40,450 nucleotides of DNA from the NCBI GenBank assembly GCA_017462485.1, contig JAFTRA010000049.1, positions 1 through 40,450 on the forward strand, given 5' to 3'. The notes under the pieces were generated by a model. That model did no database searches. It was not told the origin of the DNA and was given only the letters and a program-made list of their open reading frames with translations. The stretch comes from Clostridia bacterium (GTDB taxonomy: Bacteria; Bacillota; Clostridia; Oscillospirales; CAG-272). How positions within the stretch are numbered: the stretch's first letter is position 1; every line of letters begins with the position of its first letter. A program made the translations under genes and the position numbers. This document shows positions 2,993-8,872 of the stretch, one piece after another.

Positions 2993-4603
2993 TCAAACCA
3001 CGTTAGGCGACACTATATAGGTCCAATTATTCCTTGCGGGATAAGCGTTTTCCTTATATTCCTTGCCGTTCCCAAACCAATCAAGAATCTCCTCTTCAAG
3101 CTCGGGGATAGAATTAAGCTCGCCCGAAAGATATGCAATGATACGCTTGCGGCATGATTTTAATCTCATAATAAGTCCGCCAATGCGCTGGTCCTGCACC
3201 TCGAAGCCGTGAGGCTTGTTCTCCTTGTGCCATAAAAGCGAGAACTTCTCGTGGAAGAGCTTAAGCTTATCTTGTGCCGTGAGGTATTCCTCTGCAATCA
3301 CGGCAAGCTCTTCGCGGCTGCCTTTGCGGTAGGACTCTCGCGTTCTTGCTCCAAGGTCGTACTTGATAGCAAGCACGTCGCAAAGGGCGGCGCTCATTTC
3401 AAATACGTAGCCGTAATTCTTGCTTGCGTCAGCGTGTTTCCAAAGCTTTTTTGCGTGCTCCGCGTATTCTGCCGCTACGCCGGGCTTCACACCGGAATCT
3501 AAAAATCCGAGAAAGGCGTCGTTGTAGAGCATAGACTTGGCGATACATTTTTGTCCGTCGGTGTTTTCGCCAACAAAATTTACGAGGTCAAGGTCAAACA
3601 TAGCGTCAAAGCTCTCGCCCGTGATTTTCTCAAATTCGGATTTTATCTTCGCCATATCGCTCTCGCCGTCGTAGAATTTGCGTATAGCGAAAAGAGAGGG
3701 GAGTACCGAATAGAAGGAGCATTCCTTGCCGTTGTCACCCCACATAGTGAGGAATATATTCTCAATATTATGCTCTTTTGCCGAAAGTATAGCGGGAATC
3801 ATTGTGTCCATCGTCTTTTTGTTTCCCGAGGAAAGACCAGCCCAGGTCCACGCTCCGCCCGCAAACCAAATCTCGTTCTTAAATTTCTTATGAGCGTCAA
3901 ACATAGAGTCGTAGAGCGCCTTATCGGTATGATAGTAGTCCCAGAATACGAGCCCGACCTCGCTTGGCGTAATATTCACGACCGACTCGGGTATAACGGG
4001 ATTCATCAAAGCGTATTTACCGCCGTTGCCAAGACGGAAGAACATATCCGACCACATAATAGGCTTGAAGCCGTATTTTTTAGCAATATCTATAACTTTT
4101 TCGAGGTGACGGCTTAAGATTTCGAAGCGGTTAGTGTAGCCGTGCTTGTCAAGATATTTGCCAAGTCCCAGCATATGCGCTTCGTCCATACCTATATGCA
4201 CGTATTCACTCTTAAAGCTCTCCCTTAACGAGATAAACATCTTTTCGATAAGCTCGTATGTGGCAGGCTCGTCGCAAAGAAGAATGTCGCCCGTGTCCTT
4301 CACCCGATAATACACGTTATCCCACTTGAGCATCTGATTTAAGTGCGCAAGCGTCTGAATGCAGGGAATTACTTCAACTCCAATAGAGTCGCAGTACGCT
4401 ACGAGGTCGGAAAGCTCCTCTTTTGAATATCTTCCACGAAGATAACCGAAATACGCCTCACCTTCAATCTCGTAGGTGTCCTCGGTGTAGAGCTGAATCA
4501 TATTGTAGCCAAAGCTCCTTATTATCCTTGCAAAATTCTTAATTTCCTCGGGCTTCATTACCGCATTTCTTGACATATCAAGCATAACGCCAAAACGTTT
4601 CAT
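2993..4603 (-). CDS. GH20 family beta-N-acetylhexosaminidase
   Basis: 536 residues, no signal peptide, so probably cytoplasmic. It would release terminal beta-linked GlcNAc or GalNAc from oligosaccharides. The family's catalytic Asp-Glu pair is in HIGMDEAH (D140-E141), within a TIM-barrel region covering roughly residues 1-330; WSDMFF and FWDYY further on fit the sugar-binding pocket. The helical C-terminal part resembles the compact GcnA-like GH20 branch. The frame is open to 4684, but that extension would overlap the promoter at 4637-4665. ATG 4603 has AAAGGCGG about 8 bases upstream, so I use it. The kinase-fusion and NagB genes at 14460-17288 could process the released sugar. A beta-glucosaminidase specificity is not excluded. 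Confidence 0.85.
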   Translation of the reverse strand: MKRFGVMLDMSRNAVMKPEEIKNFARIIRSFGYNMIQLYTEDTYEIEGEAYFGYLRGRYSKEELSDLVAYCDSIGVEVIPCIQTLAHLNQMLKWDNVYYRVKDTGDILLCDEPATYELIEKMFISLRESFKSEYVHIGMDEAHMLGLGKYLDKHGYTNRFEILSRHLEKVIDIAKKYGFKPIMWSDMFFRLGNGGKYALMNPVIPESVVNITPSEVGLVFWDYYHTDKALYDSMFDAHKKFKNEIWFAGGAWTWAGLSSGNKKTMDTMIPAILSAKEHNIENIFLTMWGDNGKECSFYSVLPSLFAIRKFYDGESDMAKIKSEFEKITGESFDAMFDLDLVNFVGENTDGQKCIAKSMLYNDAFLGFLDSGVKPGVAAEYAEHAKKLWKHADASKNYGYVFEMSAALCDVLAIKYDLGARTRESYRKGSREELAVIAEEYLTAQDKLKLFHEKFSLLWHKENKPHGFEVQDQRIGGLIMRLKSCRKRIIAYLSGELNSIPELEEEILDWFGNGKEYKENAYPARNNWTYIVSPNVV

Positions 4604-4636
4604 AAAACAGACCGCCTTTCCAGTATTCTTGATGTG

Positions 4637-4665
4637 ATTATAGCAAAGGAAACTTTGAAAGTCAA
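4637..4665 (-). promoter_or_regulatory. Sigma-A promoter for the GH20 gene
   Basis: On the minus strand TTGACT (4665-4660), a 17-base spacer and TATAAT (4642-4637). The predicted start, near 4630, leaves a leader of about 27 bases before ATG 4603, which supports that start codon. Confidence 0.75.
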
Positions 4666-4774
4666 TATCAGGTCTTAAATTCAACGTTTGTTTTTCCTTG
4701 CTCTATGGGCATTTTGAACGAAAACCTTTTAATTATTTTTAATAATTTTCCCTCGCTTTTTTTGAAGAAAAGTA

Positions 4775-4803
4775 GTGACAAAATAAAAACGATATGATAT
4801 AAT
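4775..4803 (+). promoter_or_regulatory. Sigma-A promoter for the small lipoprotein gene
   Basis: GTGACA at 4775-4780, a 17-base spacer, TATAAT at 4798-4803. It is followed about 45 bases later by AAGGAG (4846-4851) and ATG 4859. Confidence 0.75.
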
Positions 4804-4858: not shown

Positions 4859-5230
4859 ATGAAAAGAATCATTTCCACACTTCTCGTATGCGTACTTCTT
4901 CTTGGATGCGTATTCACCCTTGCTTCTTGCGGCAAAATGCTTAGCGGTAAGTATGAGGCATCTATTTCGGATGAAAACAAGACAACTTACGAGTTCTCTA
5001 TGAACAAGGTTACAAAAACCACTTCCATAGGCGCTTTTGGTTTTGCAAAGACAACTACTACCGAAGGTAAGTACAAGATCACCGAGAACGATGAAGGTAA
5101 GCTTAAGATTACTTTCACTTGGGAAGTAGATGGCGCTGAAGAGTCCGAAACCTTCAATTTCGATAAGGTTGAGACGAGCGATAGCGAGTACATTGAGCTT
5201 AATGGAATTAAGTTCACTAAGGTTGACTAA
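4859..5230 (+). CDS. Small predicted lipoprotein of unknown function
   Basis: 123 residues. A lysine/arginine start, a hydrophobic stretch and a lipobox LASC with Cys24 mark it as a lipoprotein held on the outer face of the membrane. The mature part of about 100 residues alternates charged, Thr-rich and hydrophobic positions (TYEFSMN, TTTTEGKYKI, KITFTWEV, TFNFDKVE), which suggests an all-beta small barrel or lipocalin-like fold built of paired strands. It forms its own transcription unit, with promoter 4775-4803, AAGGAG 4846-4851 and terminator 5244-5271. I do not recognise a named family. The lipoprotein call is secure; the fold is my inference. Confidence 0.75.
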   Translation: MKRIISTLLVCVLLLGCVFTLASCGKMLSGKYEASISDENKTTYEFSMNKVTKTTSIGAFGFAKTTTTEGKYKITENDEGKLKITFTWEVDGAEESETFNFDKVETSDSEYIELNGIKFTKVD

Positions 5231-5243
5231 TTTCATAAAAACG

Positions 5244-5271
5244 AAAAAGGAAGTCGTGAGACTTCCTTTTT
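5244..5271. terminator. Bidirectional intrinsic terminator
   Basis: AAAAAGGAAGTC (5244-5255), loop GTGA, GACTTCCTTTTT (5260-5271), a perfect 12-base-pair stem. T runs follow on both strands, so it can end both the lipoprotein gene (plus) and the YwaF-like gene (minus). Confidence 0.9.
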
Positions 5272-5316
5272 TTATCGCATTTTTGCGGTGACTATTTAGT
5301 ATTAGAATAAAGCGGT

Positions 5317-6216
5317 TTAAGAATCTTGATTTAAGTCCTTTTTCTTTCCTTTTGAATTCAAAAGCGTCTTGCATTTTCCGAAGAGTGATTTGACGTCGCT
5401 TGCAAACTGCTTATGGTCGAATATCATAGAAAGCAGGAACGAAAGAATCGGAACTATAAGATATACGGGAACGATAAGCCAGAACCAAGGCCAGTACTTT
5501 TCCTGCCCCGCAAACTCTCCAACGGGAACGGTCTTGAAGAATTTGGGTGTGAAGAGAGCGAGGAAACTGCCTATTGCGTCATTTGTTCCGGGGCCCCATA
5601 TGTACGAGGAATTTTTGTAGCCAATGCCGAAGAAATCCCCTTGATTACGCAAAGGAATAAATCCAAGCTCGGATTGGAATATCTGATTCAGTATAATGAA
5701 GAGCATAAGCAGAAGAAGTCCCGTAGGAGCGCTGAAAACTCTTTTGTATGACGGCTTATGGTGACCGAAGAGCGCGGAAAGAAGCGGAACGGCAAGGAGC
5801 ATCCAGTGGTGATAATAAAATCTTATTATGTCGAGCGTTTCTGCGAGCTGATCGACCTTTGCAAGCGGCTCTTGAGGATAAAAAATCGCTATAAGTCCGC
5901 TTATAACTCCTATATAAAACATATAGTCTTTTACGTTTTTGTTTTTGGAGAAGAAAAAGAAGGGGAAGAGCGCGATATTAGCTCCGCAAATGTTTACAAA
6001 CCAAGAGTCACGCAGCATTCTCGCTTCATCAACCGAATACGGTGGGATATAAGCTTTTAAAAAGTGGAATAGCAATCCAAGCGCAAGCAAAGAGAAGAGA
6101 ACTGCTTTTTGCGTCCTCTCGCTTTTATTGCGAAGCAAGAAATACAATCCCGCAGTTATACCGCCAAGCAGCAGTACCCAGAAAAAATACCAACCGTTAA
6201 ACATTTGAATATACAT
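5317..6216 (-). CDS. YwaF-like (TIGR02206/TMEM164-type) multispanning membrane protein
   Basis: 299 residues with about seven hydrophobic segments and a Lys-rich cytoplasmic C-terminus. The region with FYYHHWMLLAVPL (a conserved His pair within a helix) followed by a second long helix ending LNQIF resembles the YwaF/TP0381 integral membrane family. No biochemical role is established for that bacterial family to my knowledge. ATG 6216 has CGGAG about 8 bases upstream; its own promoter is at 6291-6320 and it ends toward the shared terminator at 5244-5271, so it is probably monocistronic. The membrane location is certain; the family assignment is moderate and rests on topology and the His-rich helix. 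Confidence 0.6.
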   Translation of the reverse strand: MYIQMFNGWYFFWVLLLGGITAGLYFLLRNKSERTQKAVLFSLLALGLLFHFLKAYIPPYSVDEARMLRDSWFVNICGANIALFPFFFFSKNKNVKDYMFYIGVISGLIAIFYPQEPLAKVDQLAETLDIIRFYYHHWMLLAVPLLSALFGHHKPSYKRVFSAPTGLLLLMLFIILNQIFQSELGFIPLRNQGDFFGIGYKNSSYIWGPGTNDAIGSFLALFTPKFFKTVPVGEFAGQEKYWPWFWLIVPVYLIVPILSFLLSMIFDHKQFASDVKSLFGKCKTLLNSKGKKKDLNQDS

Positions 6217-6404: not shown

Positions 6405-7151
6405 TTAAAGAACTCTTGATAAGAATTCCTTTGTTCTTTCCATTTTAGGACTGGAGAAGATTTCTTCGGGGGTGCCTTCCTCGACGATGTATCCACCGTC
6501 CATAAAGATTACCCTATCGGAAACCTCACGTGCAAATCCCATCTCGTGAGTAACGACTATCATAGTATAACCCGCTTTGGCAAGGCTCTTCATAACCTCG
6601 AGAACCTCTCCGACCATCTCGGGATCGAGTGCCGAGGTAGGCTCGTCAAAGAGGATAACGTCGGGATTCATCGAAAGTGCGCGTGCGATTGCTATTCTTT
6701 GCTTCTGTCCTCCCGAGAGCTGCGAGGGCTTTGCGTTTCTGTATGCGCTCATACCAACCTTTTCGATGTACTCAAGCGCAATTCTTTCAGCCTCCTCACG
6801 TGTTCTTTTCAGAACTATCATCTGGGGCTTTACGCAGTTGTCAAGCGCTGTCATATTGTTAAAGAGATTGAACTGCTGGAACACCATTTCAACCTTTGCG
6901 CGATATGAGGTAAGCTTAATCTCCTTGCTCTCGATATCCGTACCCTCGTAGTATATTTTACCGCCGGTGGGTATCTCGAGAAGATTTATACAGCGGAGCA
7001 TCGTGCTCTTTCCCGAGCCCGATGAACCGATAACAGATATAACCTCGCCCTTATGCACCGAGAGGTTTATATCCTTAAGGACCTCGTGGTCGCCGAAGGA
7101 CTTTTCAAGGTGGCAAAGCTCAACCACGGTCTGTGTGCTTTTATTTTCCAT
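6405..7151 (-). CDS. Amino-acid ABC transporter ATP-binding protein (lysine, by riboswitch)
   Basis: 248 residues, the usual length for polar amino-acid uptake ATPases (GlnQ/HisP type). It hydrolyses ATP on the cytoplasmic side to power import. It shows Walker [10 protein letters not shown], a Q-loop (VFQQFNLF), ABC signature LSGGQKQR, Walker [13 protein letters not shown] and the H-loop THEMGFA. It is the last gene of the three-gene operon: its ATG is separated by one base from the permease stop (TAAAATG), with AAAGGAGG inside the permease end, so translation is probably coupled. Specificity comes from the binding protein and the lysine riboswitch upstream, not from this subunit. Confidence 0.92.
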
Positions 7152-7152
7152 T

Positions 7153-7917
7153 TTACTCTGCCTCCTTTACGTGAATTTCAGCTGAAGGGTCTGACTGCGA
7201 GCCGCAAATAGTGTATGAATTTTTACCTGCAAGCTTCTTTTCGCAAAGTCTGAGGAGTCTTGTAATCGAATAGGTCATAATGAAGTACATTACGCATATG
7301 ATAAGGTAGGTTTCGAATATTTTCCAGGTCATTGACTGCACCTTGCTTGCCATATAGTAAAGCTCCATAACGCCTATAACGTTAAGAACCGAGGTATCCT
7401 TGATATTTATAACGAACTCGTTACTGATAGAGGGAAGTATGTTTCGGAGCACCTGGGGGATGATTACGTGTATCATAGCCTGCCAGTGAGTCATACCAAC
7501 CGAGTACGCGCCCTCGAACTGTCCCTTATCAATAGAGATAATACCGCCGCGCACAATTTCTGCCATATATGCGCCGGTGTTGATAGAAACAATGAAAATA
7601 CCTGCAGGGATAAGGGGAAGAGTATTTCCGCCGTTCATAAAGGCGTATCCCCAATAAATAACCATAGCCTGAACCATCATAGGCGTTCCGCGGAATACTT
7701 CAACGTAGATCGCTATAATAACGTTAACCGTTTTCTGTATGTAGTAAACTACCTTTTTTTTCGATAGCGGAATCGTTCTTATAATACCGGTGAGAAGACC
7801 TATAAGAAGACCTATAACAGTACCGATAAGGGCGATAAGCATAGTCAAGCCGAGACCCTTTAAAAAATAGGGCCAGTATTTCGTTATTATGTTGCCGACG
7901 TTTTCAAAAAACTGCAT
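7153..7917 (-). CDS. Amino-acid ABC transporter permease (lysine, by riboswitch)
   Basis: 254 residues of the HisM/GlnP family with about five membrane helices. The cytoplasmic EAA loop that contacts the ATPase is seen in [14 protein letters not shown]...IIPQ, and [10 protein letters not shown] is the typical family motif after the second helix. The frame is open to 7947, but ATG 7917 has AAGGAAAG (7932-7925) at 7-8 bases, whereas 7947 has no site, so I use 7917. A stable hairpin (7954-7983) lies between it and the binding-protein gene and may lower permease expression relative to the binding protein. The tail of about 25 polar residues is longer than usual. Confidence 0.9.
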
Positions 7918-7953
7918 ATCAAATCTTTCCTTAAATATATTATACATAACAAT

Positions 7954-7996: not shown

Positions 7997-8872
7997 TTAG
8001 TTAGACTTCTTGTAGATAATAACGAGATTGGAGTTGTAGTAGCAATCCGTGAAGTCAACAACTTCTTCTCTGTCTGCCGTGGGGCTCATACCTGCGATAA
8101 TGCCGTCGTAAGTACCTGCCTCAAGTCCTGTGATAAGGCTATCCCACTCAACAGCGTGGATCTCAAGCGCCATACCGAGCTCAGCTGCAATATACTTTGC
8201 TATCTGAACGTCGTAGCCGTTAGCGTAAAGGTCGGAGCCCTGAATCTTAACTGCGCCGTTCGCAGAAGTGGTCTGCGACCAGTTGAAAGGCTTGTAAGCG
8301 CATTCCATAGCTATCTTGAGGGTGCCGTTTGAGGTATTTGTGTTGCTTGAAACAAGCACGGGAGCATCGTTGCTTACGGTATCGGGATCTACGCTCAATG
8401 CAACTGCCTGCTGCATAAGAGCTGCGCGGGTCTGTTCGGAAATTCCGGCAAGAATCGTATTAACGGTTGCAACGTAAGCGCTGCCGGTCTTAAAAGCAAC
8501 TGCAATACCGGTATCAGCATCGGTAGCCGTAAAGCCGGTGTCATTATTCTTAAGAGCGATGTACGCAAGGTCTGCGTTCTGAGCTATAACAGCGTAAGCG
8601 GTAGGCTCTTCCGCAACGTAACCGTCGATTGCACCGTTGTTAAGAGCTACGAGAAGCTGGTCGAAATCGGGATATTCCTTAACGGTAACACCTTCGGTCT
8701 GACCCTCGAGAGCTTCAAGGTGGAAGGTACCGGTCTGAGCGGCAATGGTTGCGCCCTTGAGATCGTCAAGATTTGTCGCAGAGGAAAGGTCAACCTTATC
8801 TCTGCCGCCGCAGGATGCGAGGCAGCCTACGAGAAGTACTGCTGTGAGAATGAGTGCGAGGATTCTTTTCAT
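7997..8872 (-). CDS. Lysine-type substrate-binding lipoprotein with circularly permuted lobes
   Basis: 291 residues. Signal peptide and lipobox LASC (Cys21) make it a lipoprotein that would hand lysine to the permease. The order of the two lobes is reversed compared with family 3 (SBP_bac_3) binding proteins. Residues about 27-168 (LDDLKGATIAAQTGTFH..., DGYVAEEP, DTGIAVAFKTGS) match what is normally the second lobe. Residues about 183-291 (LKIAMECAYKPFNW, GYDVQIAKYIAAELG, YDGIIAGMSPTADREEVVDF, NLVIIYKK) match the normal first lobe. A Ser/Asn/Thr linker (about 161-182) joins them, and the new ends fall at the usual hinge. RBS AAGGAG lies 7 bases before ATG 8872. An assembly rearrangement is the main alternative, but the frame, signal peptide and linker are intact. 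Confidence 0.9.
   Translation of the reverse strand: MKRILALILTAVLLVGCLASCGGRDKVDLSSATNLDDLKGATIAAQTGTFHLEALEGQTEGVTVKEYPDFDQLLVALNNGAIDGYVAEEPTAYAVIAQNADLAYIALKNNDTGFTATDADTGIAVAFKTGSAYVATVNTILAGISEQTRAALMQQAVALSVDPDTVSNDAPVLVSSNTNTSNGTLKIAMECAYKPFNWSQTTSANGAVKIQGSDLYANGYDVQIAKYIAAELGMALEIHAVEWDSLITGLEAGTYDGIIAGMSPTADREEVVDFTDCYYNSNLVIIYKKSN

Follow-up and report, generated by a model that had tools for sequence, protein, structure and literature searches.

A circularly permuted family-3 substrate-binding protein encoded downstream of a lysine riboswitch in Clostridia

The window analyzed here, a stretch of 40,450 nucleotides from the genome of a gut-dwelling Clostridia bacterium (contig JAFTRA010000049.1 of assembly GCA_017462485.1), carries genes for a substrate-binding lipoprotein, a polar amino acid permease, and the ATPase of an ATP-binding cassette (ABC) importer, preceded by a lysine riboswitch aptamer (Table 1). 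The binding protein belongs by descent to family 3, which has the type II fold, and its segments are circularly permuted. We divide such proteins into three segments: I_N, the N-terminal portion of lobe I including the first hinge strand; II, which is lobe II; and I_C, the second hinge strand plus lobe I's C-terminal helices. Canonical proteins run I_N-II-I_C, and the two permuted orders are referred to as register A (II-I_C-I_N), which is that of the window protein, and register B (I_C-I_N-II). Loci compared in the analysis are labeled with L-numbers (L002, L024, and so on).

Segment order was determined with profiles built from 72 canonical open reading frames (ORFs), some of them duplicates. 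Weak cross-matches between I_N and II (4–12 bits), which are due to the likeness of the two lobes, were discarded by keeping the best match per segment. In the window protein, the matches follow the order II, I_C, I_N, with the scores given in Table 1. Rotation to the canonical order, with the cut placed at the linker, gave one collinear match that spans profile positions 1–241 and scores 284 bits, compared with two pieces of 109 and 164 bits for the unrotated protein, and a deliberately wrong rotation broke the match into three pieces. Based on the profile order and this rotation control, the segment order is well past chance and the rotation is full. A phmmer comparison with PDB sequences also yielded two family-3 stretches, reversed in order in the three alignments shown, with residues ~182–291 corresponding to the first halves of the PDB chains and residues ~32–130 to the second halves. 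For 4ymx, for example, residues 209–289 align with chain positions 54–134 and residues 32–129 with positions 138–228. No match in normal order, the result that would favor an ordinary topology, appeared among the stretches shown.

The AlphaFold2 model of the window protein (predicted local distance difference test score [pLDDT] 93.3, predicted template modeling score 0.85) contains the same elements as the model of a canonical sister protein, rotated and with slight differences in short elements. Predicted I_C comprises a β-strand (residues 126–128) and two helices (133–142 and 146–161). The first hinge strand, LVIIYK, corresponds to the strand at residues 141–146 of the sister model; canonically this strand continues into lobe II, whereas here the chain ends three residues past it. 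The linker region is modeled with high scores (pLDDT of 90, 95, and 97 in ten-residue blocks over residues 161–190). VIA-align placed lobe II onto residues 98–195 of the LAO-binding protein (1lst) and lobe I onto its domain A (residues 2–94). The lobes stand in opposite chain order to those of LAO and other family-3 binding proteins.

Table 1. Features of the window locus and register-B loci. Segment residue numbers of the window protein were converted from open-frame numbering (offset 36).
Feature	Residues	Positions	Strand	Evidence or remark
Circularly permuted (register A) family-3 substrate-binding lipoprotein	291 aa	7997..8872	-	stop codon included
Lipoprotein signal peptide	1-21	8810..8872	-	lipobox read from sequence
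Lobe II (II), canonically the middle segment, here first	30-101	8570..8785	-	73 bits
I_C, second hinge strand plus C-terminal lobe I helices	102-161	8390..8569	-	51 bits over 102-159
Linker, old C-terminus to old N-terminus of lobe I	162-183	8324..8389	-	
N-terminal part of lobe I (I_N), here last	184-291	8000..8323	-	150 bits over 184-290
First hinge strand LVIIYK	283-288	8009..8026	-	strand at 283-288 in the model
Lysine riboswitch aptamer RF00168		8984..9161	-	106.2 bits
Polar amino acid ABC permease (BPD_transp_1; HEQRo_perm_3TM)		7153..7947	-	profile matches
ABC ATPase, GlnQ/TcyN-like		6405..7151	-	profile matches
Register-B family-3 binding protein L002, window's own genome		1219-2094	-	permease and ATPase downstream
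Other register-B loci (n = 10): L152, L153, L155, L157, L158, L159, L163, L164, L166, L167				

Against the Pfam family PF00497 (SBP_bac_3), the window protein scores 76.3 bits (E = 2.5e-21), above the curated cut-off of 26.4 bits, and all 44 aligned permutants match this family at E up to 0.001. Because its order is II-I_C-I_N and not the canonical order of the family, we file it as a family-3-derived permutant instead of an ordinary member. The TIGR01096 Lys/Arg/Orn binding-protein subfamily gave 99.4 bits in two stretches, below its curated cut-off of 256.35, which is also missed by the canonical sister L024 (106.7 bits). PF00497.25, with 132 positions, covers only positions 20–93 in the window protein (residues 216–290; 8000–8227 on the reverse strand), and the permutation is thus invisible to routine annotation.

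Close relatives with the same order were found at 58 loci; 13 of these repeat a sequence already counted, so that the distinct proteins number 45. The 40 loci of one search sort as 37 permuted, two canonical, and one truncated. A third segment restoring the usual topology was not detected with the segment profiles in any of the 45 close permutants, apart from weak cross-matches of 4–10 bits between the alike lobes. The circular permutation at the hinge proposed by the sequence-only reading is borne out by the order of the profile matches, the rotation control, the predicted structure, and the shared order of these proteins, and two of its details need adjustment. The new N-terminus does not lie immediately behind the lipoprotein signal but roughly so, with ~8 residues separating Cys21, which is invariant in the 44 aligned permutants, from the first position of the lobe II profile. 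The Ser/Asn/Thr linker is present, but it is one instance of a linker of 20–26 residues (median 23 in the 45 distinct proteins, one of which, L023, ends at a contig end).

By match shape, a close permutant occurs in 21 of 295 genomes of the window's family, in 3/394 genomes of an order sample (all three from the window's family), and in one of 398 genomes of a phylum sample, which is the window's own. One permuted lysine-type system with riboswitch (L068) lies in a metagenome-assembled genome labeled Erysipelotrichaceae, a name far from those of the other carriers, and reflects either horizontal transfer or a binning error.

The RF00168 aptamer is the sole match in the window's genome and lies directly upstream of the binding-protein gene. 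The riboswitch search took in 42 of the 45 close permutants (all except L020, L023, and L066) and found a lysine riboswitch 5' of every one; it was also present at 10 of 15 canonical relatives' loci searched (8/11 and 2/4) and at none of the three distant permutants searched. A permease gene follows within 600 bases in 45/45 close permutants. Among the rows listed, permease identity to that of the window is 67–90% in permuted loci and 63–69% in the canonical systems L024, L026, L073, and L071, and the order binding protein-permease-ATPase is alike in permuted and canonical lysine-type systems, with the exception of L024, L027, and L030, in which the stretch available gave no ATPase match. The canonical lysine-riboswitch systems L024, L026, and L073 share riboswitch, homologous lobes, permease, and gene order with the window system, but their binding proteins run I_N-II-I_C. 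An upstream lysine riboswitch and adjoining genes for a polar amino acid permease and an ATPase make the window system a candidate member of the riboswitch-controlled ABC lysine transporters (LysX-LysY, COG0834) as summarized in PMC5584792.

Residues E190, Y193, R268, and E88 are invariant among the 44 aligned permutants. They are the putative counterparts of the pocket residues D11, Y14, R77, and D161 of LAO. Given the riboswitch upstream of the window gene and of all close permuted loci searched, the window protein most likely serves a lysine importer as its binding protein. The earlier assignment to a lysine type is supported in this way, with binding itself being putative.

More distant register-A proteins share ~29–36% identity with the window protein and are mostly ~260–300 residues long, with identical order and cut. 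Using match shape alone with one distant query (E up to 1e-20), register A was seen in 14/196 and register B in 20/196 genomes of the class; besides the window's locus, 10 register-A and 11 register-B loci picked in this way were checked with the segment profiles. The profiles showed register B, with its cut at the second hinge strand, for 11/11 of the latter, including one locus of the window's genome. The three PF00497 proteins found in that genome accordingly represent all three registers: L003 is canonical, L002 has register B, and the window protein has register A. At L117, two register-A proteins are encoded side by side (3873–4775 and 4949–5797, forward strand), on a long tree branch. 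The clade-wide nature of the event, the occurrence of other permutants elsewhere in the tree, and the second register in the same genome are additions to the sequence-only reading.

For phylogenetic trees, segments were rearranged into a common order beforehand. The main tree has 158 rows, after removal of 25 duplicate rows, the truncated L070, and the multi-unit proteins L098, L099, L102, L114, and L120. Some long branches meet in this tree (L106, L117, L183b, L130, and others), and their positions are unsure. A set of 100 rows was obtained by hand-thinning, which removed 22 of the 45 close permutants, 28 near neighbors, and 8 rows that were long or odd. The distant register-A rows sit next to canonical relatives, apart from the close permutants. 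Forcing all register-A rows into one clade made the tree 355 log units worse and was rejected (p = 1.3e-6 in the approximately unbiased test), as were single clades of register B (p = 0.009) and of canonical rows (p = 4e-37); a single clade of distant A and B rows was not rejected (p = 0.189). Placing the three register labels on the 100-row tree requires six changes. Because the one-clade tests reject register A, register B, and canonical rows alike, these trees firmly indicate more than one register change within family 3.

One alternative is a single ancient permutation that gave rise to all family-3 permutants, the canonical lysine relatives having been re-permuted back. The same cut does recur in the distant permutants (L100–L147), those of both registers may form one clade by the test above, and trees count changes without giving their direction. 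However, the rejection of a single register-A clade and the nesting of the close permutants within canonical rows speak against this alternative, and we regard it as improbable.

The 45 close permutants form one clade in the 158-row tree (Shimodaira–Hasegawa-like approximate likelihood ratio test [SH-aLRT] support 99), with canonical L024, L026, and L073 as sisters (SH-aLRT 95), and lie with them inside a 78-row clade (SH-aLRT 99), the other 33 rows of which are canonical. In the reduced 100-row set, the permutant clade and the sister grouping each received a bootstrap support of 100. Trees of I_N only and of II only both recover the clade of 23 sampled permutants with the same three canonical sisters, and both lobes share common descent with these lysine-type relatives. 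Since the full, I_N-only, and II-only trees give the same groupings, the likeliest history is a single permutation of a canonical lysine-type binding protein as a whole, one event in one gene lineage, which most likely happened inside the operon. The permease tree agrees with a single permutation in part: the 45 permuted and four canonical systems form a 49-row set with a support of 95. If two unrelated binding-protein genes had each supplied a lobe by chance fusion, this might explain the uneven identity to L024 (62% in lobe I and 45% in lobe II), but each lobe leads separately to the same clade and sisters, and we regard such a fusion as improbable.

Natural permutation of binding proteins is already known. 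OpuAC of Bacillus subtilis (2b4l/2b4m) is, according to PMC2395249, a circular permutant relative to other betaine-binding proteins. OpuAC is two-lobed and collinear with the window protein over the full chain, perhaps with the same lobe order, at 12% identity, whereas its family and its ligand, glycine betaine, differ from those of the window protein. Membership of the window protein in the OpuAC family itself is very unlikely, considering that Pfam, read up to an E of 0.01, returned SBP_bac_3 at 2.5e-21 and no OpuAC family, that single lobes match LAO, TmArgBP, and 4ymx at 20–39% identity, and that a lysine riboswitch precedes the gene. TpMglB-2, a glucose-binding protein of Treponema ("Cluster Bc"), is a tethered natural circular permutant that still binds and closes, and PMC4990184 gives it a type I fold, a sugar ligand, three relocated N-lobe strands, and a gained fourth lobe crossing. 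The window protein is unlike it in these respects, matching family-3 profiles and single-lobe folds instead of the type I sugar-binding fold of Cluster Bc. A literature search, covering open-licence papers mostly by their titles and the starts of their abstracts, found no paper describing a natural permutant among the amino-acid binding proteins; in PMC7683729 the permutation term stands in the reference list alone, and in PMC9732360 it is applied to GFP. What is new, as far as found, is thus the amino-acid family; the surprising part is that permutation recurs and that a single genome holds all three registers.

Misassembly of a canonical gene into permuted order in the source assembly (49 contigs, 98.02% completeness) is practically refuted by the continuous ORF under purifying selection and by the same order at 58 loci (45 distinct proteins), which come from many independent assemblies with record titles naming several animal hosts. 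The window gene shows such selection, with dN/dS (the ratio of nonsynonymous to synonymous substitution rates) of 0.09–0.20 in all six comparisons of the window gene with six relatives, at dS near or above 1. Open frames in the 45 distinct proteins and these ratios also rule out a pseudogene.

Taken together, the window gene very probably encodes the circularly permuted binding protein of a riboswitch-controlled lysine ABC importer. The protein would be lipid-anchored and made together with its permease and ATPase under control of lysine through the upstream riboswitch. In its predicted fold it resembles any ordinary family-3 binding protein with two lobes. The new ends lie at the point of entry of the first hinge strand into lobe II in canonical proteins, and a linker of ~20 residues closes the old ends, both of which lie in lobe I. 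Lobes I and II would close over the presumed ligand, lysine, in the usual way. One of the two covalent lobe-to-lobe crossings would be left, the other hinge strand being kept as a C-terminal strand that no longer enters lobe II, and the membrane tether would enter at lobe II beside the hinge and not at lobe I. A likely origin is a tandem duplication of the gene or of fused domains, (I_N-II-I_C)(I_N-II-I_C), from which the first I_N and the last II-I_C would then have been lost.

Several points weigh against this interpretation. Its support comes from sequences and a predicted structure, nearly all loci are from metagenome-assembled genomes, and the dN/dS values are approximate because of the high dS. 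The assignment of lysine specificity draws on the riboswitch, which was not found at five of the 15 canonical loci searched, and on relatives, and the mapping of pocket residues onto LAO is tentative. Permeases of the permuted systems do not form one clade (two changes), nor do they when L024, L026, and L073 are included (two changes); one clade (one change) results only when L071 and L072 are added as well. Finally, a tandem intermediate was not found within the lysine-type lineage.

Support for the tandem route comes from comparison with the SBD1-SBD2 tandem of GlnP (6h30), which consists of two canonical domains, unlike registers A and B. The distant register-A protein L107 is collinear with residues 97–326 of this tandem, that is, from lobe II of SBD1 through lobe I of SBD2, and the register-B protein L153 aligns with residues 187–402. 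Since both registers are collinear with frames of the tandem, a tandem-duplication route to both is suggested. In addition, several multi-unit proteins (L098, L099, L102, and L120) look like phase-shifted tandems. L098 (2083–5484, forward strand) and L120 (2263–5697, forward strand) are open frames of 1134 and 1145 residues encoding single-chain ABC importers, with two phase-shifted binding units, a permease (by eye), and an ATPase (by profile match for L098). They may also be read as a canonical unit flanked by a half unit on either side, residues 173–393 of L098 being collinear with positions 21–250 of TIGR01096, and owing to these two possible readings they were not counted as permutants. 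L099 and L102 contain II-I_C-I_N twice, followed by a permease. In these two and in L106, L121, and L145, lobe II precedes lobe I in open frames of 510–796 residues; L145 has 537 residues, and the other four continue into permease-like sequence (by eye), so that lobe I would join the membrane domain directly. In some fused proteins, individual segments have low profile scores or no match. We moderately favor the view that circular permutation is a recurrent evolutionary mode in family-3 amino-acid binding proteins of Clostridia, the cut lying at one of the two hinge strands in all cases seen, with registers A and B as shifted tandem frames that each drop a different covalent lobe crossing and move the tether to the hinge, and with the phase-shifted fusions as surviving intermediates.

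The two-strand hinge is thought to govern closure of binding proteins and signaling to the permease. Registers A and B would each remove a different covalent crossing between the lobes, and the three registers, all found among natural homologues and all represented in the window's genome, would offer a direct test of whether both crossings or the position of the tether matter. Profile-based annotation hides this topology, in that a permutant still receives a family-3 score. Models, docking arguments, and sensor designs built on the canonical order could mislead.
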